Shown: piece after piece, positions 7,484 to 61,479 of the stretch
Layout of the letters: the number at the start of each line of letters is the position of its first letter
Position numbering within the stretch: the first letter of the stretch is position 1
Source: Stramonita haemastoma
Lineage: Eukaryota; Mollusca; Gastropoda; Neogastropoda; Muricidae
DNA: 64,000 nt
Reading direction: 5' to 3'
Assembly (NCBI GenBank): GCA_030674155.1
Contig: CM060334.1
Coordinates: forward strand, 32,869,231-32,933,230
Position numbers and translations under genes: made by a program
The notes under the pieces: model-generated
Seen by the model: only the letters and a program-made list of their open reading frames with translations
The model's database searches: none
Told to the model about the DNA's origin: nothing

Positions 7484-7681
7484 ATGGACTAACTGAAAAC
7501 AGTGAGATGTCTGGGAATATGCCGCCAAGGCGCAGCAGAAGTAGCCAAGGATCAAAATGAAGTGCCCATATATGTGGAGACTGCCGTGGAAGTGTGTGTC
7601 AAGATGGTTGTCTGTCGGAAGTACGTCACCAACACTATTGATTCTAAAACGGGCAAAATCCTCAGCACAAAAGTCAAAACG
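7484..7681 (+). CDS. Zinc-finger gene, exon 2 (N-terminal region)
   Basis: Acceptor aactttctacag ends at 7483 and donor ACG|gtgagt is at 7681. From an in-exon ATG at 7507 the protein starts MSGNMPPRRSRSSQGS and hits TGA at 7558. One base over, the frame continues as NEVPIYVETAVEVCVKMVVC and onward to a phase-0 donor. Removing one A from the AAAA run at 7554-7557 would join the two. The first half looks like a genuine basic/Ser-rich N terminus and the second like conserved coding, so an assembly indel is likely. The true start may be 7507 or in the upstream exon. Confidence 0.65.
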
Positions 7682-8397: not shown

Positions 8398-9187
8398 GAG
8401 GAGGACCCACCCACGATCCTGAGTGTCCACACATACAAAACCTCCTCCGATGCTGCCCAGTCTGCAGTAGGCATCCAGCCCTCTGCCACCAGCTCTGTGT
8501 CTGCTCCAACACCCTCTATCAAGAGAAGACCAGGCCGACCCAAAAAACAGTCTCCCTTTGTTCCTCCTTCCTCTATGAAAACGCTTGTGAAACAGTCTGA
8601 CTCTGTCCATGAAGATGCCAACCCTGTACATAGAGAAGCCGAAGTGGCAGGATATTTTGTCATAGAGACGGAAATCAATCCAGAAACAGAAGCAGATACG
8701 TCTAGGGATGCAGCAAATACCAACATGAAAGTTGAATACAAGTCCAACAAACTGACTCATCAGCAAACTTCCAAAGATGCTCCCCCCAGCAAAGAGAGGC
8801 AGAATCAAGTTCTCACCTCTCTGCCTGTAAGGCAAAGAGAGGTCGACCTTCCAGAGTGATAAAAAGACCCAGAAAGTATCTCGACAGCTATGATGAGGAA
8901 TTCCTCAAGCGTGAGTCATTAGGGGTACCTGAAAATGACATTAACAAGTCTGATGAAGAAAAAGAGAGTATGGAAGTGGAGGAAAATGAAGAAGAGGAAA
9001 ATGAAGAAGAGAATAAAGTGAAGAAGATGAAAGCAGAAGGGGAGGAGGAGGAGAGTGGGGGAGAGCAGAGGACGGAATGCCTGAAGTGTGGGAAGAAGTT
9101 CAGCAATGTGTCTAACTGTCAGCGGCACATCAACAAGGACCAGTGCAGTCGTCAGCTTCGCTGTCCTTTCTGTGACAAGATCTTTGA
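8398..9187 (+). CDS. Zinc-finger gene, exon 3: AT-hooks, acidic region, fingers 1-2
   Basis: Acceptor tattttctggcag ends at 8397 and joins exon 2 in phase 0. The first part carries an AT-hook, KRRPGRPKK (about 8521-8547). Near the C6 run at 8791-8796 the open frame changes, and downstream a second AT-hook, KRGRPSR (about 8835-8855), continues in the new frame. A one-base deletion in the C run explains this. A Glu-rich block follows (8960-9070), then finger 1, CLKCGKKFSNVSNCQRHINKDQC (CCHC type, shown here for 9079-9147). Finger 2 begins CPFCDKIF. The donor GA|gtacgt at 9187 (phase 2) gives exactly 12 residues between the second Cys and first His of finger 2 once joined to exon 4. Confidence 0.85.
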
Positions 9188-9966
9188 GTACGTAGGCATG
9201 TATGTCATGATGTGTGTGTCTTTTCTTTTTTTTTTTTTTGGCTTGTGGTATTCTGTCACTAGATGAAGAAAGAAGTGCCTGGTCTCCCGAAATCAGAGCA
9301 CATGTATGAAACTTGTTTGAATGGATATGTATGATGTGTCTACGTGTGTATGCATTCATGTGTTGCTTTAGTGTCACTGTTGTTGTGTGTCAGTCAGAAA
9401 AAAAAGAGATGAAAACAACTAAGGAAAATAGTGCAAAGAGGACTTTTCTATATATGTTCCTGTTTTTCAAATTTTATGTTTTTCATATTTTAAAATATTA
9501 TATGCACAATAAAGCCTGTACTAATAAATGAATACTGGTTTTATGAGGATCCAAAGTAAAGCTTACCTGTGGATCATATTTGTGCAACAAAACATGCATA
9601 AAACATTTCTGTAAATGAAAAAAACCCAATCCTGTTGGGATTTTTTTTGTTTGTGTGTATCATTACACTAATTCTTGCCAAAAAAAACCCAAAACAAAAC
9701 AGAAAGCAAAACAAAACTGAACAAACCCAAAAACTAATTGAGACAGAGTAAACAGCTGATGACCAGGAATGAGAGTTTGGAACTCATGAAAATTCCCACG
9801 AAATGGCAGGAAATCTTTTTCCCCTCTTAGTTCAATTTTCCTTAAATTTTTTTTTTAAAACACTTAAAAAATATTAGGAATAATTTTAATGTCTTTAATA
9901 CTTTGTAGAATTGACTTTTTTTCATTATATACTATTATTTTTTTTCTTTCAACTGGACATTTCTAG
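9188..9966 (+). other. Intron 3 of the zinc-finger gene
   Basis: GT-AG intron (gtacgt...catttctag). It contains AATAAA-like motifs at about 9509 and 9523, which could support an intronic polyadenylation isoform, but nothing proves it. Confidence 0.7.
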
Positions 9967-10210
9967 CACCCGGGCTCTACTGGACAGTCACATGGAAAGC
10001 CATCGCGACCAACAAAACCAGAACAGCTTTCGCTGCAGCGACTGTAGCCGTGTCTACGCCACACGCAACGGCTACCTGAAGCATAAGCGGCAGGGGACCT
10101 GCTACAAGCGAGATGTTTTTCATGAAGATGGCACCCAAGGAGAGTTTGAGTGCTCTACGTGTCGTGTGAGGTTCACCACAGAGAAACTGCTTGAGTTACA
10201 TAAAGAGAAA
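9967..10210 (+). CDS. Zinc-finger gene, exon 4: fingers 2-4
   Basis: Starts in phase 2 after ttctag. It completes finger 2 (TRALLDSHMESH), contains finger 3 (C-x2-C...H-x5-C: CSDCSRVYATRNGYLKHKRQ then GTC), and starts finger 4 (CSTCRVRFTTEKLLELHKEK). The donor AAA|gtgagt at 10210 is phase 0. Length 244 nt agrees with one nt completing the preceding codon. Confidence 0.92.
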
Positions 10211-10396
10211 GTGAGTGTTGACTATATGTTGAATGCTTGGCTAGTCAGTTTTTCAAACCTGCAAGGCTCCTACAGGGAGATAAAAACAAATGATAATGTC
10301 AGTGTGAAAACTACAACTTCAATTCATGCTGTGCAAAGTTCACCTAAGTATTTTTTTCTCTTCTTTGTAAAACTTGTAGCTGTAACAAAAGAGTTA

Positions 10397-11100
10397 TAAT
10401 AATAATAATAATACATGGAATTTATATAGCGCTATATCTTGTAAAAACAAATCAAAGCGCTTGCACGCAACCATCACAACAAACAGGCAACCAATGACAA
10501 TGAATAATTCTAGCAAATTCGAAAGCACACTCACACGCACACACACTTATAGAAGCTATAAATTTAGGCAAGGTGAAGGGAATTTCAAATGTTGAAAGCA
10601 GGGACAAATAGGAAATGAAAACAGAGGGCAAAAATCTTAGGTTTGAAACAAGTCTGTCTTGAGGTTGGATTTAAAAGTGTCATATGTAGGCTTTTGCCGA
10701 AGGGAGAGAGGGAGGTCATTCCAGATTGATGGACCAGAAATAGAGAAAGAGCGGCGGCCAACAGTTGATAGGTTCAATCTAGGTATTTTTAAGGATAAGG
10801 TATCTGCAGCCGAGCGGAGGGAACAAGAAGGTGTGTACACGTGAAGACATTCACAGAGGTAAGAGGGTGCTGTTTTGTGGAGACATTTATAACAGAGAGT
10901 ACTGATCTTATAGTTTACTCTCTGTGGCACAGGCAGCCAGTGGAGAGATTGCAAGAGAGGAGTAATGTGCTCAGATTTTTTCTTTCTGAGGACCAGTCGA
11001 GCTGCAGAGTTTTGTATGCGTTGGAGGGAGTGGATAGATGATGCTGGCAGACCAGCCAAAAGAGAATTGCAATAGTCCAGACGTGAAAGAATAAGAGAAG
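10397..11100 (-). mobile_element. 5'-truncated LINE 3' end in intron 4
   Basis: The minus-strand ORF 10637-11059 encodes the C-terminal tail of a non-LTR retrotransposon protein. Signature phrases are [32 protein letters not shown] and [17 protein letters not shown]. The element's 3' end lies at 10397-10460 with gcgctatataaattccatg-like sequence and a (TTA)n tail. The same tail motif occurs at 32950-33000 (+) and 35358-35400 (-). Confidence 0.85.
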
Positions 11101-11593
11101 TGACTAGTTATGTGATACTATTAGCATAAGCTTTTTCCCCACTGAACAAATATGGCTGAAAAAAGGCAGTATTCTCACAAAACTGAATTAGAACCAGAAA
11201 TTGTCAAAATTGAAATGGAAAGCCATTGGTTACACAAGTGTGATAATCAAAATACTGATCTTGCAAGTCAACAATATGAAAAATATTCCCTGCTGAAGTG
11301 GACCATAAAAGGATAACCATTTTTGTTGCCTAGGAGAGACCTTATAAATATCTTGATCTAACGTTTGGGGTGGTGGGGGGATCTTGGTTTTTGGAATAAG
11401 TAAGCTAAAAAAAAAATCTGAGTATATGCTAGGGAAAAAAGAAAACTGATTTGCAGTTACATTTTGTATTGAGAGCTCTTCTTCTGTTTTATTTGTATGT
11501 GGATAACAAATACAAAGTTGTGTATAAGTGCATTAAAGTTGCTGCTATCTTATGACTCTGACTTGATGAAAGTTCACTCTGTGGGTTTGACAG
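11101..11593 (+). other. Intron 4 remainder, no feature recognised
   Basis: AT-rich intronic sequence ending in the acceptor gtgggtttgacag. Confidence 0.6.
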
Positions 11594-11769
11594 GTGCATG
11601 AGAACCCCAATAACGAGTACAAGTGCCCAGACTGCAGCCGTGTCTTCTACAGCAAGCTGGGCTTCAACAAGCATGTGGCGAAGAAGTCCTGCACTCAGCC
11701 CCACATCTGCAAAGTGTGTGGCAAAAAGTACTCCAACAAGGCCAAGGAGAGCTTCAAGTCCCACATGAG
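11594..11769 (+). CDS. Zinc-finger gene, exon 5: fingers 4-6
   Basis: Phase-0 start after tttgacag. VH completes finger 4. Finger 5 is CPDCSRVFYSKLGFNKHVAK with terminal C after KS (CCHC type). Finger 6 starts CKVCGKKYSNKAKESFKSHM. The donor ATGAG|gtgcgc at 11769 is phase 2. If the intron is read through, translation stops almost at once at an in-frame TAG near 11780. Confidence 0.92.
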
Positions 11770-12150
11770 GTGCGCAGGATAGTGGACGTTATTTTCTGAT
11801 GAGGAACATTGCCATCAATGCAAGATTTCTACAGCAGAATTTTTTTTACCGTCTTTTGGTGGAAGCTGCCAAGGACATTTCTGGTCTTTGTCTTCATTTT
11901 CAAAAGTTCTCTTTTTCATATTCTTGTGAAAAACAAAAGTGGTGAGAGTATTCTTTCATAGGCTGTTGAATAAATTTGGTGTTTGTATTCCTTTATTGTT
12001 CGGAAGTATTTCTCAGTAATTTATCCTTTGATGATCTCATGATCTCAGACAAAAAAACACTCAATGTTAAAATTGACAGTTGGTAAGAGTGTCCACTAGA
12101 CTCTGCTGTAAAGTGGGGGTTTTTGTGTCAAATTTATATTGGCTGACTTG

Positions 12151-13017
12151 TCATTATTCAGTCAGATTTATTTAGCTTGATTGTGCAATGCTGCAGGTAC
12201 CACTTAGATCATTATTCATTCAAATTCATTTAGCTGGATTGTGCAATGCTGCAGGTACCACTTAGATCATTATTCATTCAAGTTCATTTAGCTGGATTGT
12301 GCAATGCTGCAGGTACCACTTAGATCATTATTCATTCAAGTTCATTTAGCTGGATTGTGCAATGCTGCAGGTACCACTTAGATCATTATTCATTCAAATT
12401 CATTTAGCTGGATTGTGCAATGCTGCAGGTACCACATAGATCATTATTCATTCAAATTCATTTAGCTGGATTGTGCAATGCTGCAGGTACCACATAGATC
12501 ATTATTCATTCAAATTCATTTAGCTGGATTGTGCAATGCTGCAGGTACCACTTAGATCATTATTCATTCAAGTTCATTTAGCTGGATTGTGCAATGCTGC
12601 AGGTACCACTTAGATCATTATTCATTCAAGTTCATTTAGCTGGATTGTGCAATGCTGCAGGTACCACTTAGATCATTATTCATTCAAATTCATTTAGCTG
12701 GATTGTGCAATGCTGCAGGTACCACTTAGATCATTATTCATTCAAGTTCATTTAGCTGGATTGTGCAATGCTGCAGGTACCACTTAGATCATTATTCATT
12801 CAAGTTCATTTAGCTGGATTGTGCAATGCTGCAGGTACCACTTAGATCATTATTCATTCAAGTTCATTTAGCTGGATTGTGCAATGCTGCAGGTACCACT
12901 TAGATCATTATTCATTCAAGTTCATTTAGCTGGATTGTGCAATGCTGCAGGTACCACTTAGATCATTATTCATTCAAGTTCATTTAGCTGGATTGTGCAA
13001 TGCTGCAGGTACCACTT
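12151..13017 (+). repeat. 58-bp minisatellite, ~15 copies, containing the splice acceptor of exon 6
   Basis: Unit length is 58 bp. The phrase ttgtgcaatgctgcag starts at 12181 and recurs every 58 bp to 12993, giving 15 copies. The array's last unit is the genuine 3' splice site, and its next nine bases (gtaccactt) are the first bases of exon 6. Copies differ by only a few substitutions (aaattc/aagttc, cttag/catag). Confidence 0.97.
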
Positions 13018-13199
13018 GGCGGAGACCTCAGGTGTTCATTTCCAGTGCGAGGACTGTGGCCGGGTGTACATGACTGAAATGGCACTGCGCAAACATCGCC
13101 TCACCTCCCACTCCAACCTGCGGCCCTACAAGTGCGGCACGTGTTCCAAAACCTTTCCCATGCGGTACATGGTGCGTGACCACGAGAGGTCCCACACAG
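13009..13199 (+). CDS. Zinc-finger gene, exon 6: fingers 6-8
   Basis: Begins with G completing an Arg codon, then YH completes finger 6 (two extra residues in its Cys-His loop). Finger 7 is CEDCGRVYMTEMALRKHRLT ending SH (H-x4-H). Finger 8 is CGTCSKTFPMRYMVRDHERS ending H. The exon ends HTG at donor G|gtaagt (13199, phase 1), inside the TGEKP linker that exon 7 completes. The exon's first nine bases belong to the 58-bp array. Confidence 0.93.
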
Positions 13200-13394
13200 G
13201 TAAGTGTTTTGGACGGAGATTGTGTGTATGACCTGTTCTGATGTATAACTTTGAACTCCACTCCCCTCTCAGTCGTAGAAGTGCATGAACAACATTGTTA
13301 ACCTAACCTTCCATACACTATAGAGAGATATCCGAGTTATCCAGCTTTACCTATAAACAAACAATTTGTGTCGTGTTATAACAATCTTTCTTAA

Positions 13395-14450
13395 CCCTTT
13401 GCTGGGCACAGCAAAATCATTTGTCACCTTCCTGCCGGGCAGAGAAAATGGAGGTGGATGGCTTGTGAGTGGGTGTATGTATTTAACATGCAATAACTCT
13501 ACAATGGTCAGATGGATTTTGATGAAATAAAAACAGCAAGATGCAGAAATGAATAAAGAAATTGCTAATACCCAATTTTTGTCATTATTTTTATTTTCTT
13601 TTAGAATTATAATGCATAAACACACAAAGTCATTGATTGGTTTGTGTGTGTTACAGTTAGCGTTGCAATAACTTTAGAATGCGTGCATGGATTTTGATTA
13701 AATAAAAACTAAAACATTAAGAAACAATTATAGAAAAGATATTTTCAACCTACTGTTGGTTTTTTAGTTTTTTTGATAAATGGTGCACAAACACATCGAA
13801 CATTCCGACGATCGCCATTTTTGTTTACCGATGATCGCGATCAGCTTAACGTTTAAGTTTGAGCCGCTACCGTATCAAAATCCCAAATAGCAACCAAATA
13901 ACAAAATATATCAAGTTCTGAACCATTGCCGAACTTGAAATCCACGATAATTTCCCCAAATCTAAGAGTAGAATTCAAAACGCGTATCGGCCGTGTTAGA
14001 TTTGACGATCGATTTTCGTCTCGAACTTCGCCGTAGTCAAAGTCGTCTCTCTCACTTCAGTCAACAAACTCAGAAGTGCACACACTACTAGGATCGATTA
14101 CATCGATATTTGAGCCTAGATACACATCTCACAGCGTCATATTTTCGGCATGGAAGCTGTAAAAACGATCGTAAATGTCGGGTTCGAAGATAGCATCCAT
14201 CTTGGAAAAATTTGCGATTTTTTCCTCCAAAACTTGCAACAAACTCACTCCAATCGCCGCCATTTGTAATAAACATGCGGAAGTCTCGCGGGCAGTCTCG
14301 TGGCTTCTATATTCACGAGATTTGAAGCGAGATTGGTGGGAATTTCGACTGTATGATCGCTCTGAAGTGACGGTCGTGTCGCCGGGCGCTTTGGGGCGTT
14401 TTGCCCAAGGACAGGGTCGGGCGCTTTGGGGCGTTGTGCCCAGCAAAGGG
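13395..14450. mobile_element. Non-autonomous piggyBac-like MITE, 1056 bp, TTAA target
   Basis: TTAACCCTTTGCTGGGCACA at 13391-13410 is the exact reverse complement of 14435-14454. This gives TTAA target duplications and perfect 16-bp terminal inverted repeats starting CCC, the hallmark of piggyBac-type elements. A subterminal direct repeat (gggcgctttggggcgtt) lies near 14385 and 14419. There is no transposase ORF. It sits in intron 6 of the zinc-finger gene. Confidence 0.9.
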
Positions 14451-14578
14451 TTAATGTATATAAATTTGCTCACATTGTCATGCCATTTTTTCCCCCTCTT
14501 TATTCTCAAAATTTATGTTCTCTTTTTGTATGTTTTATGGAATGAGTAGGTGACAATTTTTTTTTTTTTTTTTTTTTA

Positions 14579-15385
14579 AAGATGTTAAGGATTCTCTCCC
14601 AAGTTGTGGCAGTAGATATTCTTATTGAGAACATCTTGAGAGTGTTGTTATGCTGGCTGTAGCTGATGGCTTGGTTAAAGATGTTAAAGATTTTCTTCCA
14701 AGTTGTGGCAGTAGATACTCTAATCCAGAACATCTGGAGAGTGTTGTTACGCTGGCTGCTGCTGACGGCTTGGTTTAAAGATATTAAGGATTCTCTTCCA
14801 AGTTGTGGCAGTAGATACTCTACTTCAGAACATCCTGAGAGTTTTGTTATGCTGGCTGCTGCTGAGGGCTTGGTTTAACGATATTAAGGATTCTCTTCCA
14901 AGTTTGTTTTTTTTAAGATGTTAAGGATTTTCTTCCAAGTTGTGGCAGTAGATATTCTAAATCAGAACATCTTGAGAGTGTTGTTACACTGGCTGTTGCT
15001 GACAGCTTGGTTTAAAGATATTAAGGATTCTCCTCCAAGTTTTTTTTAAAGATGTTAAGGATTTTCTTCCAAGTTGTGACAGTAGATATTCTAATTCAGA
15101 ACATGTTGAGAGTGTTGTTATGCTGGCTGTAGCTGATGGCTTGGTTAAAGATGTTGAAGATTCTCTCCCAAGTTGTGGCAGTAGATACTCTAATCCAGAA
15201 CATCTGGAGAGTGTTGTTACGCTGGCTGCTGCTGACGGCTTGGTTGAAAGATATTAAGGATTCTCCTCCAAGTTTTTTTTGGTTAAAGATGTTAAGGATT
15301 CTCTTCCAAGTTGTGGCAGTAGATATTGTAAATCAGAACATCTGGAGAGTGTTGTTACACTGGCTGTTGCTGACCGGTTGGCGCG
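14579..15385 (+). repeat. ~99-bp tandem array next to the last exon's acceptor
   Basis: Units begin 'gatgttaaggattctc' and contain 'aagttgtggcagtagatatt' and 'gagagtgttgttacgctggctg'. Full ~99-bp units alternate with truncated ones (near 14880, 15020 and 15250), so the array has a higher-order pattern. The last unit runs to within about 20 bp of the acceptor at 15395. Confidence 0.95.
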
Positions 15386-15395
15386 TGTTGTGCAG

Positions 15396-16183
15396 GAGAG
15401 AAGCCGTTCCTGTGCAGCCTGTGTGGCACCTCCTTCAGCAACCGCGGGCACCTGTACCGCCACATGCGCTCCCACACCCTGGGCACCCTCCACAAGCGCG
15501 GCCGCCCTCGCAAGTACCCCTCTGTCTCTAGACCCGTCCTCCTCAAGCTGAAGGACACAGGGGAGGAGGCTCAGGAGGGCTTTGAGGAGCTGGCGGGCGG
15601 GAAGGAGGAGGAGGAGGCGCAGGCGGCGGCAGTGGCAGCGGCGGCGGAGGAGCTGGGGGTGGTGGAGATCAAGACGGACGCCCTGCAGCAGGCGGTGGTG
15701 CAGGAGGACCTGGGGGCTCTGGGGGCGGGGCCCACCTACATCACCGTGCACACCATCGACGGCCAGATGGGGGAGGCCACGGCCACGCAGAGCCTCATCG
15801 GGGAGGGGCAGCTGCAGCACGTCGTCATGGAGACCCCGGACGGCATGTCCGACAACATGGTGCTGCAGGTCATCCGGGACCTGACGGGCGCCACCACTGT
15901 GTACCAGCACATCACCGAGCAGCCTGGGGTGTCTTCCACTGCCGCCTCCCTGGAGACTGTGCCCGCCCCCCCTCCTCCCCCCCAGCAGATCATCATGTCG
16001 GCAGCGGTGCCGCAGCCAGGGGCCGGCGGTCAGCCCACGCTGGTGGTGGAGCCCGGCAGCCTGGAGCAGCCAGCGGTGGTGACGGCGCAGCAGCTGATGC
16101 ACAGCCAGGGGCAGCAGCAGCAGCAGCTGATTGTGGCTCCTTCACACACTGCCGCCGCTGTCACTCACACTTTGTCCACCTAG
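15396..16183 (+). CDS. Zinc-finger gene, last exon: finger 9, AT-hook, C-terminal region
   Basis: Acceptor gcgtgttgtgcag ends at 15395. GA completes the Gly codon and the linker continues EKPF. Finger 9 is CSLCGTSFSNRGHLYRHMRS ending H. Next comes an AT-hook, HKRGRPRKY (about 15493-15519), then a long region without fingers. That region has Glu/Ala runs, an ITVHTIDGQ-like segment, a Pro run and a Gln run, and a TAG stop at 16181-16183. GC content is much higher than in the introns. The C-terminal region resembles transactivation domains of nuclear zinc-finger regulators. DNA-binding transcription factor is the likely role; the orthologue is not recognised. Confidence 0.92.
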
Positions 16184-25589: not shown

Positions 25590-28578
25590 GAGTACATGCA
25601 AATGAGTATATGTGAGTTTGTTCGACAGTACGCTTTAAAAGCATTGTTATCCAATCTTGATAACTTCTCTAATCTTCAAAAGCTGATAAATAAATCATAA
25701 AAGAGAAAAAAAAGAGAGAGCAGGCAAAAGAAAGGGAAGGTGTTACACCAATGAGAACATAATGACTACACCTCTTACTGTGATCCCGAAGTTAGCAAAG
25801 CCTTGTGCTCAACAATCTGTGCGTAACATTCATCAAGTGACTTCGTATTTATAACAGCACATAGTACACTATCAACATCCATGGACACACGAAGGAAGGT
25901 ACAGCAATCCAGACGCACAACATAGGCCATAACCGTCCCTGAATATCTTCATTTCTTCTTTACAACATCTGCAAAAAACATGGTACAAATAACACAACAC
26001 AAACTGCGCTTGAACTGGACACTCACGTCTGCGTATCTGTCGTTCTAATGCAAAAGAAAAATTTGCTGAATAAAAATTGCACGATAGTTTAGAAAAAGAT
26101 GCTTACACTAAACAAAGTAAATTAGTTAGATTGAACAACTATTGGCCTTGAATGCTTGACCTTAAATTAAGAAACAGAAACTTATTTATATTTTAAAAAA
26201 ATCAACATGGCTTCTGAACAGAAAAAAATAGCCAAAACAAAATTTTGAACCATTCAAATACAAAGTAAAGAGTCAACACAACTACTCTGATCTAACGTCA
26301 GAGTCAACGCCAAAGAAAAAAAAAAGGAATACATTCAGTAAGTAGCAGTTGGAACTATTGCCTTGAAAACCCTCTGATCTGTCAGCACAAGACACAGGAT
26401 GATTTGTGCAGTAAAATGAGTGAGCATGTCCAGTCCTTGGTACAACACTGATGAAACAACACAGAAACAAACAAACTACTACCCAAAGGCAAATAAGAAC
26501 ATCTTGAAAAGTACAAAAGTGTTAAATGCATACTTGAACTGACTGGTTATGAAAATAAATATCATACAAAATAAGTGAATATATACATCTGGAAAGAGGT
26601 GATTCTCAGTACTTCACGTTGGATTTCGGTGAAAACAGTGCAGTGTACAACAGGGTAATAAAATCCCCATAACAATCATCTGCCCTATAATCAACGAGGT
26701 ACCAGTTTTACGCACGTGACTCTCTCAACTTTGTAATATTACTACGCCCTAGATACCCTTTTAAATTCATTATTGATTTTTCATTACTGCTTAAAAGCAT
26801 AAACCTTGGATTCCTAAGTGTAATGGGAATTGGAAGTGCAGAGGTGGGCAGAGTAAAAACAGCAGTTGAAGAAAACTCCTTGAATAAACTACAGAAAACT
26901 GAAAGAAAACATTTTGGCAGAAGTCTGGTCACCCTGTATAAAATAATCTGACAAACCTTTTCCGCTATGTTGAAGACAACCATGTCAATGAAAGAAGTTG
27001 ATCTGGCAACAGCTACAAAAGATCATATTTTCCACATTTGCTCTGAAAGTGAAACTACCACGAACATAACTATCAGGTGGTGCACACAGTTCTCCATTCT
27101 CCTGTTAACGAAACAGAGTGACTGGAATCCTAGGAGACCAAGTAGTAAACAAGTACTAATTGCGGATATCAATTAAGTAACACTTAATCACCACTGAAAC
27201 ATTGTCGAACTAACAAAATACAATCTTCAAACAGGGCAATCATCAAAATCAGTCATCAAATTGGACTAAAAAATAAATCCAATCGAAAATAATTTGCATA
27301 GATAATCATTTAAGTACATACATATCGCTGTAAAATAAAGATAACAAATCAGTTTGCACACAATTCACTGTTTAAAAAAAAAAAAAGTGACAAATCAGTT
27401 TCAAACATACAGGTTATTTGCGATGATCGGTCAGACTCTCTGTAAGTACTTTCTAGTCCCCTGCATGGTGGATGCTCCACAACAGTTCCCCAATGTAATG
27501 ATGACACATTCACATTGTATGTGTGTGTGTGTGCTTTCTTGAATGTCACATTGTTTTTAAAAAAAAAAAGGAAATAAAAAAAAGAATAGATTCACAGATA
27601 TCTGTACACAAAACTGCATGCGACATAAATACTGACCATATCAAAGAAATGTTCATACAACAATGAATGGACAGCAGAACCGAGGTACCACCAACACTGC
27701 AACTCCCGAGCTCTCCATGAAAATGCAGCACAATGTCTCCCAATGATCGGATGAAAACATGGACCGTGTACAGATGGCATGTGACTGAAATGCTGTTTGA
27801 TCTGGTTTAAAATGCCTCGGAGAAGCACATTGATCTTGCATGAAGACCTGAAATGGAAGCACTGAACAACCTGGCCCACACCGATCTTGAGAAACCAACT
27901 GAGGAAAAGTATGTTTCATAAAATCAAAATCAATCATTACTTGAAAAAAAATCAGTGTTTAAACATACTTCAAAGGACGCATTCATCATCTAAATGCTTT
28001 TGAAATTAAAACCAACCACTACTTGAAGAAAAATTATCAGTGTTTTAAAAGACTTCAAGGGAAGCATTCATCATCTAAATGCCTCTAAAATTAAAATCAA
28101 TGACCATTTGGAAGAAAAAACATCAGTGTTTAAACAGATTCCAAGGCAAGGAATCAGCATCTAAAGGCCTTTAAAATAAAAATCAATGACTTTTGTAGGG
28201 TAGAATGGCTTGATAGCTATCACTTAAGATGAGGGAAACTGTTTGCTTTAATTGGCTGGTTTTTTGTCAAATGGCAAAATATAAATTTTGTTAAAATGTA
28301 CAATCCTTCAATTTTGTATAGTTTATGAGGTGTATAAGAGAATTTACTTTAAAAAAAAAAAAGAATATTCCAAAAAACTTTCATTTTGATGTTGTAACAT
28401 TCTGAAGAAAAACAGCTTGCAGGCCCCCAAATGATGCTGGACCAACAACAGATGAATGCTTCACTTGACTTTCAGAGAGATGATCCTGAACATTCAAAAG
28501 AGGTCACAGGACAGCCCCACACATGGATGGCTAAGCAGGCAGAAAGCAAGTCACATCAGTTGGAAAGGAATACTGATG

Positions 28579-31609: not shown

Positions 31610-31649
31610 CTGAAACACACACTACACATGTTAGCTGGTTAGTTCATAG

Positions 31650-32130
31650 GCAATCCTGGGAAGAAAGGTGACGAGATGGTTTAGACTTTCACTTGCCTAA
31701 TAAGTAAACCGTGAGGTTCTGGGCAATCCTAGGAAGAAAGGTGACAAGATGGTCAAGACTTTCACTTGCCTAACAAGTGAACCGTGAGGTTCTGGGCAAT
31801 CCTAGGAAGAAAGGTGACAAGATGGTCAAGACTTTCACTTGCCTAACAAGTGAACCGTGAGGTTCTGGGCAATCCTAGGAAGAAAGGTGACAAGATGGTC
31901 AAGACTTTCACTTGCCTAACAAGTGAACCGTGAGGTTCTGGGCAATCCTAGGAAGAAAGGTGACAAGATGGTCAAGACTTTCACTTGCCTAACAAGTGAA
32001 CCGTGAGGTTCTGGGCTTGATTCCCAGTCTAGCCCTTCCTCCCCAATTTGACAAGAAAATCGAACTGAATGTCAAAGTCCTTTGGATAAGATTGTAAACT
32101 GAGGACCTGTGTGTGATCCACCTTAGACCA
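31650..32130 (+). repeat. 73-bp tandem array (5 units) within a SINE head
   Basis: The unit caatcctaggaagaaaggtg...ccgtgaggttctggg recurs with 'ttctggg' at 31717, 31790, 31863, 31936 and 32009. The last unit continues into cttgattcccagtctagc, a B-box-like tRNA segment, and then a SINE family-A-like body (aaagtcctttggataagatt). The array is an expansion of the head of a SINE. Confidence 0.9.
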
Positions 32131-32199
32131 CTGATCCTGATTTTTAGTAGACTGGTGAATCCTTTAGGATATGCTCTAGAATTTGACTTGCTATGTAAA

Positions 32200-32868
32200 T
32201 GTAACAGAGCGCAGATATTTGATCTGCCGCGACTCTGTACAACTTCTCGGAACGACAGCACGGTCAGACAGTGGGAATGTGGCCTCTAAAAAGAGGCTGC
32301 ATAAATACTACATTTTACCGCTACGGGCCAAGTGCATGCAGAGGACGGCTTTCGACCACCCCCCAACGATACAGAACGTCGCACAATTCACAGGTGTGGA
32401 TCCAAACGTTACACCCACGACGCTGCGATTGGCAGTTCCGATCGCAAGGGAAGTAATCTAATTACCGCCCTGCCACATCCACCACCGCTGACTTTGTGCC
32501 GCGTCCCGAGGCACAGTGGGTACTGACCAGTGTATTTGACGCTCAGATCAGTAGTCCCAAGTTCTTTCCATCCTGCTCGCAGCGCCACTTTGTAACAGAG
32601 CGCAGATATTTGATCTGCTGCGACTCTGTACAACTTCTCGGAACGACAGCACGGTCAGACAGTGGGAATGTGGCCTCTAAAAAGAGGCTGCATAAATACT
32701 ACATTTTACCGCTACGGGCAAAGTGCATGCAGAGGACGGCTTTTGACCACCCCCCAACGATACAGAACGTCGCACAATTCACAGGTGTGGATCCAAACGT
32801 TACACCCACGACGCTGCGATTGGCAGTTCCGATCGCAAGGGAAGTAATCTAATTACCGCCCTGCCACA
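32200..32868 (-). mobile_element. TRIM: miniature LTR retrotransposon, 669 bp
   Basis: Two 278-bp direct repeats (32200-32477 and 32591-32868) differ at only three positions. Each starts TGTAACAG and ends CTGCCACA, the TG...CA ends of LTRs. The 113-bp interior, read on the minus strand, has TGGCGCTGCGAGCAGGAT (32570-32587) three bases from the LTR. This is a good primer-binding site: its complement looks like a tRNA 3' acceptor stem ending CCA. Flanking TAAA (32196-32199 and 32869-32872) is a candidate 4-bp target duplication. No gag or pol sequence is present. Each LTR contains a perfect GCCTCT/AGAGGC hairpin. Confidence 0.85.
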
Positions 32869-33040
32869 TAAAAAAACAGACACTCAGTGTGTGATAGGTT
32901 TAAAATATACAAGTGTAGTAGAAGGCTCTGAATCTGCACACTTTGCCTTTCAAGATTCAGTGCTATATAAATTCCATGCATTATTAACTATTATTACTAT
33001 TACTTCTTGCACAAAGAAACGGGTCCCTATTTCTTAGAAA

Positions 33041-33325
33041 CCTGTTGGCATTCTTCTGTCATCTGCTTCAAGACAGTCACAATCGGTTGGCAATAAGAGA
33101 AGTGCTTGTTGTGGCAGCAGCACAGGCAAGACATAGACATAGACATGACACCAATGAAACAAGACAAAAAAAAGAAAGCAAGCAGAAACCTGTTGGCATT
33201 CTTCTGTCATCTGCTTCAAGATAGTCACAATCAGTTGGCAATAGAGAAGAGCTTGTTGTGGCAGCAGCACAGGCAAGACATAGACATAGACATGACACCA
33301 ATGAAACAAGACAAAGAAAAAGAAA
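33041..33325. repeat. 148-bp tandem duplication
   Basis: cctgttggcattcttctgtc starts at 33041 and 33189. The copies continue through gcagcagcacaggcaagaca and acatgacaccaatgaaacaag with few differences. They lie just beyond the convertase exon's 3' splice donor. Confidence 0.93.
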
Positions 33326-33353
33326 GTAAGTCAGGAGGCATGGCAGTGCTGAC

Positions 33354-33490
33354 CTGTGTGTGAAGGAGGGGTTTGGTGGAGTTGGGCTGGATGGGGGAGG
33401 CCAGGTGCACGGCCTGTACACTGCCGAAGTAATGCTCCGGGCAGTGCGCCACACAGTGCTGGTCCATCTTGAAGAAGCCCGGCTTGCACT
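33354..33490 (-). CDS. FURIN: Furin-like convertase, Cys-rich exon
   Basis: Minus-strand acceptor gtgtgtgagtgcag and donor CAG|gtcagc. The 137 nt encode ECKPGFFKMDQHCVAHCPEH YFGSVQ (first residue shared with the upstream exon) and then a Ser/Pro stretch with an NST glycosylation sequon. This is the centre of a furin Cys-rich repeat. It ends in phase 0 and joins the last exon (GVCKPC). It begins in the middle of a repeat, so an upstream Cys-containing segment is expected. Confidence 0.9.
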
Positions 33491-33554
33491 CTGCACTCAC
33501 ACACCAACACACCCTCCTCAACATCATGTTCGCTTTGTAGCTTCACTTCTTCAA

Positions 33555-33795
33555 CACTTCATTACTTTGATCACTTCTCCCACACTTCATTACTTTGATC
33601 ACTTCTCCCACACTTCATTACTTTGATCACTTCTCCCACACTTCATTACTTTGATCACTTCTCCCACACTTCATTACTTTGATTACTTCCCCCACACTTC
33701 ATTACTTTGATTACTTCCCAACACTTCATTACTTTGATTACTTCTCCCACACTTCATTACTTTGATCACTTCTCCCACACTTCATTACTTCGATT
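33555..33795. repeat. 28-bp tandem array, ~9 copies
   Basis: Unit cacttcattactttgatcac plus ttctccca, repeated from 33555. It lies about 65 bp upstream (gene sense) of the convertase Cys-rich exon's acceptor. Confidence 0.95.
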
Positions 33796-40674: not shown

Positions 40675-41309
40675 ACCCAACCAACTAATGAAAAACACCA
40701 AATAAACACTAAAAATAACCTGTCATAAGGTCACTTAATTAAGTAGCAGTGTGCAGGAAAGTGAACCAAGGTGGGCAGGACAAAATCATATTTCAGCACA
40801 AGATAAACATTTAACAAAATTAATGTGACAAAATTGCCATTGTCAACATTTTGGCAAAAAATTGTTGGCACATGTGACGAAACAGTCAATATAAAGAACA
40901 ACCACCAGCGGTTAAAATACACCAGGATTACAGTTAACATACATCGCAAAAGATCAAACGGGATTTCTATCATATATACATAAAAAAAGTTTTGATACAA
41001 TTGAAGAATACTGTTTACAAAGGGAGCATCTCTATTGACTTATATTTACATTTTACTGACTGTGGTTGAGTTGGCACAATGCTAAACTGCATCGTATTGT
41101 ATTGTGTTACATTGTCTTGTATCACTGCTTTCTCTTTGCATGCATTGTCACTGAAAAGAGACTATGTCATGTTAAACTACCCATCTTCTTTTCTGCTTGC
41201 AAGTCGCAATGAGTTTTGGTACAAACTTTGACAAAGGGCATCATCCTTCTTGCTGCCATTTCATAGAATTTTTTTTTTTTTTTTTAGAGTACTTTTAACA
41301 GGTCTTGCA

Positions 41310-43925
41310 CCTTATAAGCCAGTGTACACTGAGACACCCCAAAAAGCCAATTTACTATGAGACACCTTAACAAGCCAATTTATAGTGATACATCTAAAAA
41401 GCCAATTTACAGTAAAACACCTAACAAGCCAATTTACAGTGAGATACCTAAAAAGCCAATGTACACCAAGACACCCCAAAAGACAGTGTAGCATTAGACA
41501 GCCTGTCAGTCAGCAAATATATACTGAAACACCCTACAAGCTAAAATACACTATGACACCCTACAAGCTAAAATACACTATGACACCCTACCAGCTAAAA
41601 TACACAAAGACACCCTCCATCTAAAATACACTATGACACCCTACCAGCTAAAATACACTATAACACCCTACCAGCTAAAATACACTATAACACCCTACCA
41701 GCTAAAATACACTATAACACCCTACCAGCTAAAATACACTATAACACCCTACCAGCTAAAATACACTATGACACCCTACCAGCTAAAATACACTATAACA
41801 CCCTACCAGCTAAAATACACTATGACACCCTACCAGCTAAAATACACAAAGACACCCTCCATCTAAAATACACTATAACACCCTACCAGCTAAAATACAC
41901 TATAACACCCTACCAGCTAAAATACACTATAACACCCTACCAGCAAAAATACACTATAACACCCTACCAGCTAAAATACACTATGACACCCTACCAGCTA
42001 AAATACACTATGACACCCTCCATCTAAAATACACAGAGACACCCTACCAGCTAAAATACACTATAACACCCTACCATCTAAAATACACTATAACACCCTA
42101 CCAGCAAAAATACACTATAACACCCTACCAGCTAAAATACACTATGACACCCTACCAGCTAAAATACACAAAGACACCCTCCATCTAAAATACACTATAA
42201 CACCCTACCAGCTAAAATACACTATAACACCCTACCAGCTAAAATACACTATAACACCCTACCAGCTAAAATACACTATAACACCCTACCAGCTAAAATA
42301 CACTAAGACACCCTACCAGTTAAAATACACTATGACACCCTGCAAACTAAAATACACTATGACACCCTGCAAACTAAAATACACTGAGATACCCGATAAG
42401 CCAATGGATACTGAGATACTTGAAAAACCAATGTACATTGAAACACCCTTATAACCCAATGAAACCTGAAACACCCTATCAGCCAATGTACACTGAAACC
42501 TGAAACACCCTATAGCCAATGTACACTAAAACCTGAAACACCCTATCAGCCAATGTACACTGAAACCTGAAACACCCTATAGCCAATGTACACTGAAACA
42601 ATGAAACCTGAAACACCCAATGTACACTAAACCTGAAACACCCAATCAGCCAATGTACACTGAAACCTGAAACACCCTATCAGCCAATGTTTACTGAAAC
42701 AATGAAACCTGAAACACCCTATCAGCCAATGTACACTGAAACAATGAAACCTGAAACACCCAATCAGCCAATGTACATTGAAACAATGAAACCTGAAACA
42801 CCCTATCAGCCAACGTACACTGAAACCTGAAAACACCCTATTAGCCAATGTTTACTGAAACAATGAAACCTGAAACACCCTATCAGCCAATGTTTACTGA
42901 AACAATGAAACCTGAAACACCCAATGTACACTGAAACCAAAACACCCTATTAGCCAATGAACACTGAAACAATGAAACCTGAAACACCCAATCAGCCAAT
43001 GCACACTGAAGCAATGAAACCTGATAAACCCTATTAGCCTATGTACACTGAAAAACACCCTATCAGCCAATGTATACTGAAACTGAAACACCCTATCAGC
43101 CAATATATACTGAAACCTGAAACACCCTATCAGCCAATGTACACTGAAACACCCTAAAAGCCAATGGTGCACTGACACACCCTAAAAGCCAATGGTGCAC
43201 TGACACAACCTAAAAGCCAATGGTGCATTGACACACCCTAAAAGCCAATGGTGCACTGACACAACCTAAAAGCCAATGGTGCATTGACACAACCTAAAAG
43301 CCAATGGTGCATTGACACACCCTAAAAGCCAATGGTGCACTGACACACCCTAAAAGCCAATGGTGCACTGACACAACCTAAAAGCCAATGGTGCATGACA
43401 CACCCTAAAAGCCAATGGTGCATTGACACACCCTAAAAGCCAATGGTGCATTGACACACCCTAAAAGCCAATGGTGCACTGACACACCCTAAAAGCCAAT
43501 GGTGCATTGACACACCCTAAAAGCCAATGGTACATTGACACAACCTAAAAGCCAATGGTGCACGACACACCCTAAAAGCCAATGGTGCATTGACACACCC
43601 TAAAAGCCAATGGTGCATTGACACAACCCTAAAAGCCAATGGTGCACCGACACACCCTAAAAGCCAATGGTGCATTGACACACCCTAAAAGCCAATGGTG
43701 CATTGACACAACCTAAAAGCCAATGGTGCATTGACACAAAAACCATACCCTAAAAGCCAATGGTGCATTGACACAACCTAAAAGCCAATGGTGCATTGAC
43801 ACACCCTAAAAGCCAATGGTGCATTGACACAACCTAAAAGCCAATGGTGCATTGACACACCCTAAAAGCCAATGGTGCACTGACACACCCTAAAAGCCAA
43901 TGGTGCACTGCACACACCCTAAAAA
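41310..43925. repeat. 2.6-kb complex satellite with three homogenised sub-blocks
   Basis: Monomers of about 27-28 bp share a core like acaccctaNNagccaatgtacactga. Block 1 (about 41515-42390) is 27-bp 'ctaccagctaaaatacactataacacc' units. Block 2 (about 42390-43150) mixes 'cctatcagccaatgtacact' with inserted 'gaaacctgaaac'. Block 3 (about 43150-43925) is 28-bp 'cctaaaagccaatggtgcattgacacac' units. More divergent monomers at 41310-41515 link to block 1. The 27-bp period keeps frames open, so long repetitive ORFs here are artefacts. Confidence 0.97.
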
Positions 43926-55194: not shown

Positions 55195-55770
55195 CTGCGG
55201 TTAGTTTGGGCCTCGCATTTCTTGGGTACTGGGCGCCTGAGGAGTAGGAGGAGGAAGAGGATGAGGAGGAGGAAGAGGAAGAGGATGAGGACGATAAGTT
55301 GGACTTTTTGGCTAGCGTTTCGTACACACACGTGTGAGCAGCAGGATCGGCGTGCTTATGCTTGGGGCGTGCATAAGGCAAGAACTCCCAATACTCGCGA
55401 GCGAGCGCGGAGTCCCAACCAGTCTTACTGGAGCTGCCGCCGTAATTGTTGCGCCCGCTCCCCTTGCTCCCCCACTTCCACCTGTCGGCAGGCTGCTGCT
55501 GGTGATGGAAGTTGTTGCTGTAGAAGTCCCGCGTGGTGGTGGTGGTAGTGGTGGTGGTGGTGGTGGTGGTCGTTGGGAACAGCGTGGTGTTGACGTTCTT
55601 GAAGAAGGGGTTGTAGTGGGGGTAGGGGTAGTGCTGGCGGGGCCTCTCCGGGTAGTAGTGCTGGCCCCAGTTGTCCACCTTGGGGCTGCGCACGCTGGTG
55701 GGGCTCTTGCGGGGATGGCTGTCCGTGCCGTACAGCACGAGCACCCAGTCGCGCAGTCGCCCTGCCCGCA
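55195..55770 (-). CDS. FURIN: Furin-like convertase, P-domain end and Thr/Ser-rich linker exon
   Basis: Acceptor tttgtctgttcag gives a start at 55770 (two nt complete a codon), then RAGRLRDWVLVLYGTD, the conserved last strand of the P domain (W-x-LVLYGT). A long linker follows with an NTT sequon, a run of 14 Thr (near 55533-55574), aromatic/His/Gln-rich sequence and a run of 16 Ser (near 55240-55290). Two donors fit the phase-1 requirement of the next known exon: a GC donor CGCAG|GCAAGC at 55195, or a canonical TCCA|gtaaga at 55429 that would remove the Ser-rich half. The frame stops at 55181 if unspliced. The 3' boundary is therefore uncertain. Confidence 0.8.
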
Positions 55771-57084
55771 CTGAACAGACAAACAGTTGGAGGCTCTCCT
55801 TTAAAGACAGTTGGATAACCACAGAAACACAGATCAAAGCAGTAAAAAAAAGTTTACATATTATCAAGATCTCAGAAATTTCCTCCCTCCCCCCCAAAAA
55901 AGAATAAAACAATGTGATGTGAACAACCATTTGATTTTCCAGTAATGTTTTCATAAATAACTTACTTTCAAACCATCCCAACCCAACCCAACAAAAAAAA
56001 CCCTCAAAAACCTAGCCAAAAGACCACAAAAGGAAGGGGGGGGGAAGGAAAGCAAGTTCACAAGTCTACATGGTCATAATCATTCCAATTTAGCAGAAAA
56101 CCCCCACTCCTCTGATCACAATTATCTTATGTAGCAGTGTAAAGATGATGAGTGTTGGAGACTGTGGCCTAACTCAAAGGATGACTGGAACACAGCAAGG
56201 TAAACAAACAAGGTAGGTAAACTCAGATAAACTATAAACTTCAGACAGGTAGTTAGAGAGGCAGTCTGGGCATTTTCAAATGAATTAACAAACATGCACA
56301 CCTAAACTAAAGGCTCATACAGGCAACAACAGCAACACTAATTCAACAGAATTTAACTAGCATGTGTATGTAACATTAAAAAACCATCTGACAATTCTTG
56401 TCACTATACAGGTCGGATATAAAACTATTTCATGCTGCTCTTTTTTTTTTTTAATCATGCAAATTGGGCTCAGTATACATGTTTCATGCCACTTTCAGAT
56501 ATTTTACAACATGCTACATTCCAATTTCAACATGTTCATCAATACATGCCCCATGCTGCATAACACCTCTCTCTATACTGATGCATGACATTGGTATCTA
56601 CAGTAGTAAAACATCAGTGAACAAGGATAAAGTCAGATTACCACCATTGTTGCTAAAGAAACCAATATTTTGATTTTAAACTTCAATAAAAAAAAGCCCT
56701 AACGTGCAAAACTTCAATGAGGGAAGCTTTTTCTTATGAGCACCATTTTGTGCTACACAGTCTTGATATAAAAAAAAGGATTTTTTTGGTAACTTTTTTT
56801 TTTAACAGTTTAATAATCATTTTTACTGCTTATTCTGTAGGGGGGATGGATAAGGGGGTGGGGTGAGTGGAGGTGGGGTATGGGGGTAGGAGGTGTCTGA
56901 ATACTGAGTAGTTGACACTGCTGAGAATGTCCTGCTCAGAGGCAAAGTTTTGATGTTTCACAAAACCAAGATTCAGGGTAGAAGATGTCAATGCGTTTCC
57001 ACAAAAGACTGTTTTTGCTTGTGCAAGAAGAAAAGAAGACAACATAAATGCACTTAGAGTTCATCCAATCCAACTCATCTTATT
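55771..57084. other. Convertase intron, nothing recognised
   Basis: AT-rich intron DNA. No exon or clear repeat. Confidence 0.5.
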
Positions 57085-60514: not shown

Positions 60515-60819
60515 AAGAACTGGGGCCGTTCTCAATCTCCAGCATCCACTGCCCCTTGGCGGGCTCGCCCCAGTTGTGGGTGGTCATGAAGGCCCAGTTG
60601 TTGAAGCCCTCCCGCGAGGTGTCACGTGCCCGCTTGGCCAGCAGGATGGAGCGGGTGAGGGAGGGGGAGGTGAGGATGATCTGGATCTCCCCGCGGCGCG
60701 ACGACGACATGGTGATGCGGGCCTGCACGTGCTCCAGGTACTTGACGTGGTTGACCGTGCCATCACAGCCGTCCGTGTACAGGGGCACCATGATCTTGCC
60801 GTTCATGGGCACGATTCTG
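60515..60819 (-). CDS. FURIN: Furin-like convertase, P-domain exon
   Basis: Acceptor cctccctccccag with a NAGNAG context (CAGCAG). The 305 nt start in phase 2 and end in phase 1 (TTCTT|gtaagt). The product contains VKYLEHVQARITMSSSRRGE, a hydrophobic IQIILTSPSLTRSILL, and DTSREGFNNWAFMTTHNWGE, which is the canonical P-domain series (EHV..., L.SP..T.S.L, NW.F....WGE). The P domain folds against the catalytic domain and is needed for convertase activity and stability in this family. Confidence 0.96.
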
Positions 60820-60882
60820 CTGGGGAGGGAGGAAGGAGAGACCCACGTCAGCGTTTTACAGGGGGAGGGGGGTGGGGGTGGG

Positions 60883-61210: not shown

Positions 61211-61479
61211 GGGGGGTGTGTACATATTAGAGAACTTTTCCGTTTCTGGGCACCATGATCTTGCTTTTCATGGGCTCGATTCTGTTGGGGAGGGAGGAGA
61301 GACCCACATCAGCATTTTCAAGGGAGGGGGAGGGGGTAGTGTACATATTAGAGAACTTTTTCCATTTTGTTGACCATGTCTGGGTACAGACTAAAGCACA
61401 ACTAAAGACTAGAGCGCAACTCCATGGTCTTCCGAGACTGATGGGTGCCTACTACTACTGGGTACAGAACAAAATTTCC

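Follow-up and report, generated by a model that had tools for sequence, protein, structure and literature searches.

The 64,000-nucleotide stretch of Stramonita haemastoma DNA analysed here (the window) contains a C2H2 zinc-finger gene and, as its minus-strand neighbour, a furin-like protease gene (Table 1). Exons were fixed by tblastn of orthologue proteins. The zinc-finger gene has a further upstream coding exon, ending at 7681, and its joined exons encode nine C2H2 fingers together with AT-hook-like stretches, the fingers having been counted and the stretches named by eye. A Pfam search on eight pieces returned zinc fingers and a proprotein convertase P domain, among weaker matches, and Rfam gave no match on the window at the gathering score. 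Among the 120 proteins listed as matches, the closest were those of Babylonia areolata (72% identity), Nucella lapillus (71%) and Littorina saxatilis (60%), all three genera being caenogastropods. The best match of the furin-like gene was the Babylonia furin-like protease kpc-1, and the Babylonia matches to both genes lie on a 47491366-nt contig, in line with a conserved neighbourhood. In exon 3 (8398-9187), the orthologue alignment shifts frame near 8820-8832, reflecting either an assembly error or a real change, and a furin-like exon at 49194-49058 (minus strand) likewise appears to change frame, at about 49156. An alternative furin-like exon at 55290-55780 (minus strand), which has a poly-Thr run, matches pulmonate relatives (LRDWVLVLYGTDS).

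Table 1. Features of the two genes and of the tandem repeats and duplications at their splice junctions (positions in the window; / marks a splice junction).
Feature	Position	Strand	Details or basis
C2H2 zinc-finger gene	8398..16183	+	Exons 8398-9187, 9967-10210, 11594-11769, 13009-13199, 15396-16183
Exon 5	11594..11769	+	Ends CCCACATGAG/GTGCGC, phase 2
58-bp minisatellite, 15 units in register	12151..13017	+	TRF and motif listing
Unit 1, edge unit	12151..12208	+	Four private differences, first half (unit positions 11, 15, 19, 28)
Span of the first base following each of the 14 upstream decoys	12197..12951	+	AG ends 12196 to 12950, step 58
Junction after TTTAG of last unit, candidate second frame-keeping acceptor	12987..12988	+	+21 nt
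Exon 6, 191 nt (not a multiple of 3)	13009..13199	+	Acceptor AG ends 13008, donor CAG/GTAAGT
Second zinc-finger-gene minisatellite, unit ~100 bp	14575..15381	+	Ends 14 bp before exon 7 acceptor (AG ends 15395)
73-bp minisatellite, 5 copies	31649..32016	-	39 bp upstream of furin-like acceptor (exon starts 31609); TRF
147-bp two-copy tandem repeat	33036..33330	-	23 bp downstream of donor of exon 33354-33490; TRF
28-bp minisatellite, 9 copies	33543..33794	-	52 bp upstream of furin-like acceptor (exon starts 33490); TRF
Furin-like boundary, 58 intron + 37 exon nt around acceptor (exon starts 60819)	60783..60877	-	Blast
Upstream copy of furin-like boundary, 84% identical, same intron	61248..61336	-	Blast

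Intron 5 of the zinc-finger gene ends in a tandem array, for which TRF gave a period of 58, 14.9 copies, 98% matches and a score of 1650. Each unit consists of 46 intron nucleotides ending TGCTGCAG, nine exon nucleotides GTACCACTT and AGA; in the last unit, AGA is replaced by the GGC of the true exon. All 15 units carry ttgtgcaatgctgcag followed across the splice point by gtaccac, and the 23-base motif TTGTGCAATGCTGCAGGTACCAC recurs with its AG ending at 12196 + 58n (n = 0-14), from 12196 and 12254 to 13008. The AG in the last unit is the real acceptor of exon 6, which begins GTACCACTTGGCG. These results confirm the preliminary description of the array as a 58-bp minisatellite that repeats a 3′ splice site at this spacing. 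The same description had the site copied 15 times, which is right for the number of units, the count being 14 copies plus the original. It also gave every unit nine exon bases, as most units have, the exceptions being two of the 14 copies (units 5 and 6), where a T/A change at unit position 54 yields CACAT. Beyond the array, the 23-base motif had no match at up to 6 substitutions on either strand of the 64-kb window, and viral contigs held no exact match to it, a result of little weight for animal DNA.

Variation among the units is limited. Apart from its private differences, unit 1 has an A at position 16, in common with five other units. In units 2-15, leaving aside the exon end of unit 15, the only variable sites are positions 16 (A/G) and 54. 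An A-G-G pattern at position 16 recurs in units 2-4, 7-9 and 10-12, which suggests that blocks of units were duplicated together. The combination of a diverged edge unit with near-invariant units 2-15 is as seen in homogenised arrays. Around the splice point, all 15 units are identical across 18 bases before and 7 bases after the junction, and units 2-15 are identical across 30 bases before it, so that local sequence hardly separates the true site from the decoys.

We compared the coding sequence at the exon 5/6 join with that of the orthologues to establish the direction of copying. The Babylonia (P0001), Nucella (P0002) and Littorina (P0003) proteins all read HMRYHLAE(T/A)SG across this join (HMR/YHLAE). 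Because the three orthologues keep the coding sequence there, the nine exon bases of the unit are old coding sequence that was copied from the gene into the array; on this comparison, we take the array to stem from the acceptor of this gene together with the exon bases that follow it. With the copied codons, R-Y-H is completed, including the last His of finger 6. Both outer edges of the array read ACTTG (12146-12150 and 13014-13018), which would fit a first duplication primed by microhomology. The inner unit joins read ACTT-AGA-TCATT and do not keep this homology; the microhomology route therefore needs at least one further change.

The true acceptor at 13008 has 8 pyrimidines in 16 positions, at the low end among the 11 acceptors of the window (range 7-16), and such a poor site could make site choice leaky. 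Since the acceptors are alike and the true one is poor, the choice of 13008 would rest on context or position. GC content is 0.581 in exon 6 versus 0.372 in the array, and 0.55 in the 40 nt after the true AG versus 0.325 after the one decoy measured (unit 2). The exon 6 donor matches CAGGTAAGT at 9/9 positions. A leave-one-out acceptor matrix built on the window's own acceptors ranked 18 of the 74 AGs in the intron 5 tail higher than the true site, with which the 14 decoys tied; with 10 sites it had little power, and we rejected it for ranking AGs because the sites were too few.

Splicing to the upstream sites was then examined by translation. Twelve of the 14 upstream AGs give RYHLDHYSFKFI and then a stop, corresponding to the tail YHLDHYSFKFI of the preliminary description, and the other two (units 5 and 6) give RYHIDHYSFKFI and a stop, with the tail YHIDHYSFKFI. 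That finger 6 would be kept and fingers 7-9 lost through these sites is correct as a translation. The phase of exon 5 and the orthologue join bear out 13008 as frame-keeping, although the candidate acceptor at 12987 would also keep the frame and yield HMSWIVQCCRYHL in place of HMRYHL. A decoy-extended exon 6 would measure 249-1003 nt versus 191 nt for the true exon, and the 14 upstream stops all fall 212-966 nt short of the exon 6/7 join. A stop more than 50-55 nt before an exon join is expected to lead to decay of the mRNA (NMD). By this textbook rule, the upstream-spliced mRNAs are expected NMD targets, and they are more likely to be decayed than translated into a truncated protein. These distances leave the proposal of a useful truncated isoform unsupported, and we do not favour a truncated protein as the main product.

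The anatomy of the array resembles that of the amphioxus “mirages”, described as minisatellite-like duplications spanning an intron/exon boundary in Adh3 and in the globins BflGb6 and BflGb9 (PMC3087553); a later report describes a further mirage in PGBD5, with citations for Adh and troponin C (PMC3902484). As in those arrays, the units in the snail gene span the boundary and carry AG/GT splice signals (in 15/15 units), and a homogenised core is accompanied by a boundary unit that is diverged rather than homogenised. Many of the amphioxus repeats are likewise stated to bear AG/GT signals, for which the authors allow a cryptic-site role (PMC3087553). The snail array has 15 units, compared with 6 and 3 in the described BflGb6 haplotypes, and its 58-bp unit is shorter than the ~150-160 bp of the amphioxus globins, though inside the Adh3 range of 10-72 bp. 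It differs in copying only nine exon bases and in its host, a snail rather than a cephalochordate. It is most likely a mirage-type minisatellite, here in a mollusc. Amphioxus is where boundary-spanning minisatellites were met in the literature searched; their absence from molluscs does not follow, as most subscription papers lay outside the search.

Other repeats offer partial parallels. In the potato RdRp gene, intron gain by tandem duplication (the Rogers model) is described together with a copied intron/exon piece (PMC4974935). Both that case and the snail array involve tandem duplication bearing splice signals; unlike a Rogers-type gain, in which duplication of an exonic AGGT segment creates a new intron, the snail unit is mostly intron and the gene reads without a new intron or exon, the orthologue proteins aligning across the exon 5/6 join with nothing inserted. 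The abalone TSSK1-like gene likewise has a minisatellite in a gastropod intron (intron 3), with 27-bp units, versus 58 bp here, whose number differs between individuals; the portion of that report consulted mentions no splice site or exon distance (PMC6905558). By analogy, length variation of the snail array, read here in one assembly, is plausible; instability in length between alleles or cells is also a trait of mirages as described in amphioxus. A Conus intron study describes microsatellites in introns and, in the text consulted, places none at an exon edge.

We consider it probable that the array is a tolerated mirage-type minisatellite, with splicing directed mostly to 13008 and decoy-spliced mRNAs probably lost through NMD. 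To judge from the anatomy, a tandem duplication would once have captured the 3′ end of intron 5 together with the nine bases that open exon 6, and slippage or unequal exchange would then have raised the number of units to 15 and homogenised them. The site at 13008 would be preferred as the only copy with the GC-richer real exon behind it and a consensus donor 191 nt on, whereas behind each decoy only nine bases are exon-like before AT-rich intron resumes, and the decoys would have to define exons of 249-1003 nt. Occasional splicing to a decoy would produce a stop-bearing mRNA, probably cleared by NMD, and the array would mostly be a tolerated by-product rather than a regulated switch. In constructs with duplicated beta-globin 3′ splice sites, where the upstream copy was followed by 14, 55 or 205 exon nucleotides, splicing is described as very inefficient, with all splicing at the downstream copy (PMC5389562); the same paper mentions an exon-length effect reported by others (Reed and Maniatis 1986, cited there).

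The array might instead act as a dial, in which use of upstream acceptors rises with the number of units and yields less full-length product through NMD, or a six-finger protein. The likeness of the sites over 18 + 7 bases, the weakness of the true site and the similar tail and stop behind every upstream site would all suit such a device, and a human repeat offers some precedent. In intron 18 of ABCA7, each 25-bp unit of a VNTR starts with a donor, and inclusion of one unit leads to a premature stop (PMC5954066). Skipping of the following exon, exon 19, is reported to grow with VNTR length (PMC5954066), so repeat length can matter for splicing. Against the dial, the frame-breaking retention of one ABCA7 unit is given as ~2% and independent of VNTR length (PMC5954066). 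The amphioxus arrays, moreover, are reported without disturbance of regular splicing (PMC3087553, PMC3902484), the Adh3 and RT-PCR data being said to suggest no interference (PMC3087553), and in the snail gene the far copies would require exons of up to 1003 nt, so that any effect should saturate. We therefore regard the dial as unlikely. The ABCA7 VNTR and the snail array are alike as intronic tandem repeats with a splice site in each unit whose inclusion leads, or in the snail would lead, to a premature stop, but the described ABCA7 units supply donors and the snail units acceptors. The minisatellite of IFI6/G1P3 (6-16) similarly provides multiple splice donors from its repeat units (Turri 1995, cited in PMC4526556); there too, the units offer alternative splice sites of a gene, though on the donor side, and alternative units are reportedly used, generating isoforms. 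The snail array falls outside this donor-site class, as it lies against the exon downstream and the splice site it repeats is that exon's acceptor, and the GT within its unit is a weak donor match. From the ABCA7 analogy, skipping of exon 6, whose length would shift the frame, is worth attention.

Recursive splicing through zero-length exons would have each decoy join regenerate GAG/GTACCA and be respliced onward until 13008 is reached. A recursive splice site has AG followed directly by a consensus donor, together with a long pyrimidine tract. An AG followed by GT is present in every unit, but the regenerated donor agrees with the consensus at 5/9 positions, the unit itself (GTACCA) agrees with CAGGTAAGT at 6/9 and there is no G at +5; the real donors of exons 3 and 5 likewise score only 5/9. 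The pyrimidine tract is poor, and adjacent copies are merely 58 nt apart. Recursive use of the array is thus very unlikely. Even less credible is a dispersed satellite or transposon-borne minisatellite that landed by chance at the exon edge, for although the window is rich in tandem repeats, the exon bases of the unit are conserved coding sequence and the searches in the window and, with little weight, in viral contigs found no copy elsewhere. Comparably improbable is an assembly artefact that inflated or scrambled a real two- or three-copy duplication: the apparent frame changes in two nearby coding exons suggest residual base errors, and the copy number may be mis-assembled, but the ordered internal variants and the diverged edge unit argue against it, as would, if long reads were used, the 867 bp of the array, well inside the span of such a read.

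We also asked how the other tandem arrays in the window are placed relative to the exons. Splice sites (20) were fixed by orthologue alignment and GT/AG, and probabilities were obtained by exact placement with exons barred and arrays treated as independent; to allow placement of its array, the start of exon 6 was set to 13018. Of the seven longer arrays, five are no more than 60 bp from a splice site, against 0.14 expected at random (P 3.5e-8), the limit having been set after the distances were seen, with TRF rows merged by hand and a two-copy repeat as one of the five. Without the exon 6 array, the count is 4/6 (P 1.5e-6), and at 25 bp it is 3/7 (P 1.7e-5), or 2/6 without that array (P 9.5e-4). 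With 21 sites, arrays of period 20 or more and about 100 bp or longer gave 5/9 within 60 bp (P 3.5e-7), and a period of 10 or more gave 5/16 non-exonic rows (P 1.4e-5; 2/18 rows were exonic and dropped). As a control, a weak one, repeats of period 7 or less gave 0/21 non-exonic rows within 60 bp (0.46 expected) and 1/21 within 100 bp (0.76 expected), 1/22 being exonic and dropped. The scope of these figures is one window with two genes and 20-21 known sites.

Besides the exon 6 array, the four near arrays adjoin splice sites, at 14, 39, 23 and 52 bp, without containing them; thus the second zinc-finger-gene minisatellite does not include the exon 7 acceptor, and the furin-like exon 33354-33490 is flanked on both sides, by the 28-bp minisatellite and the two-copy 147-bp repeat. 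The 73-bp array contains the acceptor-like CACCTTTCTTCC(T/C)AG five times; this sequence looks pyrimidine-richer than the true acceptor 39 bp downstream, and its copies are possible decoys. Two arrays are far from known sites, at 27919-28191 (3418 bp away) and 41308-43924 (5132 bp away). The latter is a complex array, mostly of 27-42 bp units, that fills 2.6 kb of a furin-like intron. In a furin-like intron, two stretches within 32180-32852 contain ORFs whose translations are nearly identical over a long run (RYLIC..PIAREVI), which points to a direct duplication a few hundred bp in size.

A second duplicated boundary was found in the furin-like gene. With 24-mers taken at 20 splice sites and compared within 4 kb, the best copies were those of the exon 6 acceptor (0 mismatches) and of one furin-like acceptor (3), the next best having 7. 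The boundary of this furin-like acceptor has an upstream copy (E 5.6e-24 locally, 2.8e-20 against the whole window), in which the AG at the join reads AA (CCCCAACAG), with another AG 3 nt on. At an E value of 1e-4, none of the other 19 sites (21 in total, exon 6 set aside) had a duplication across it. A direct repeat GGAAAA(A)GTTCTCTAATATGTACAC stands on either side of the decayed boundary copy (61225-61375, minus strand), as though the copy were what remains of a tandem unit. It is possible, and we offer it as a tentative reading, that minisatellites in the snail lineage arise preferentially at splice junctions, through a process tied to the exon edge that seeds tandem duplications.

The array amounts to a natural experiment in splice-site choice, in which one true acceptor is set against 14 upstream copies, and the true site and the decoys differ mainly in position and downstream sequence. 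Counts of reads at each AG would gauge the share of exon context and distance alone. The clustering of arrays at junctions is the part most deserving of follow-up. If minisatellites are indeed seeded at splice junctions, mirages, rather than being an amphioxus oddity, would be the visible cases of a general process that supplies duplicated splice sites, and genes in this decoy-rich state could give rise to new exons and introns. Should the clustering hold genome-wide, the origin of duplicated splice sites, and hence of new introns and exons, would become directly testable in snails.
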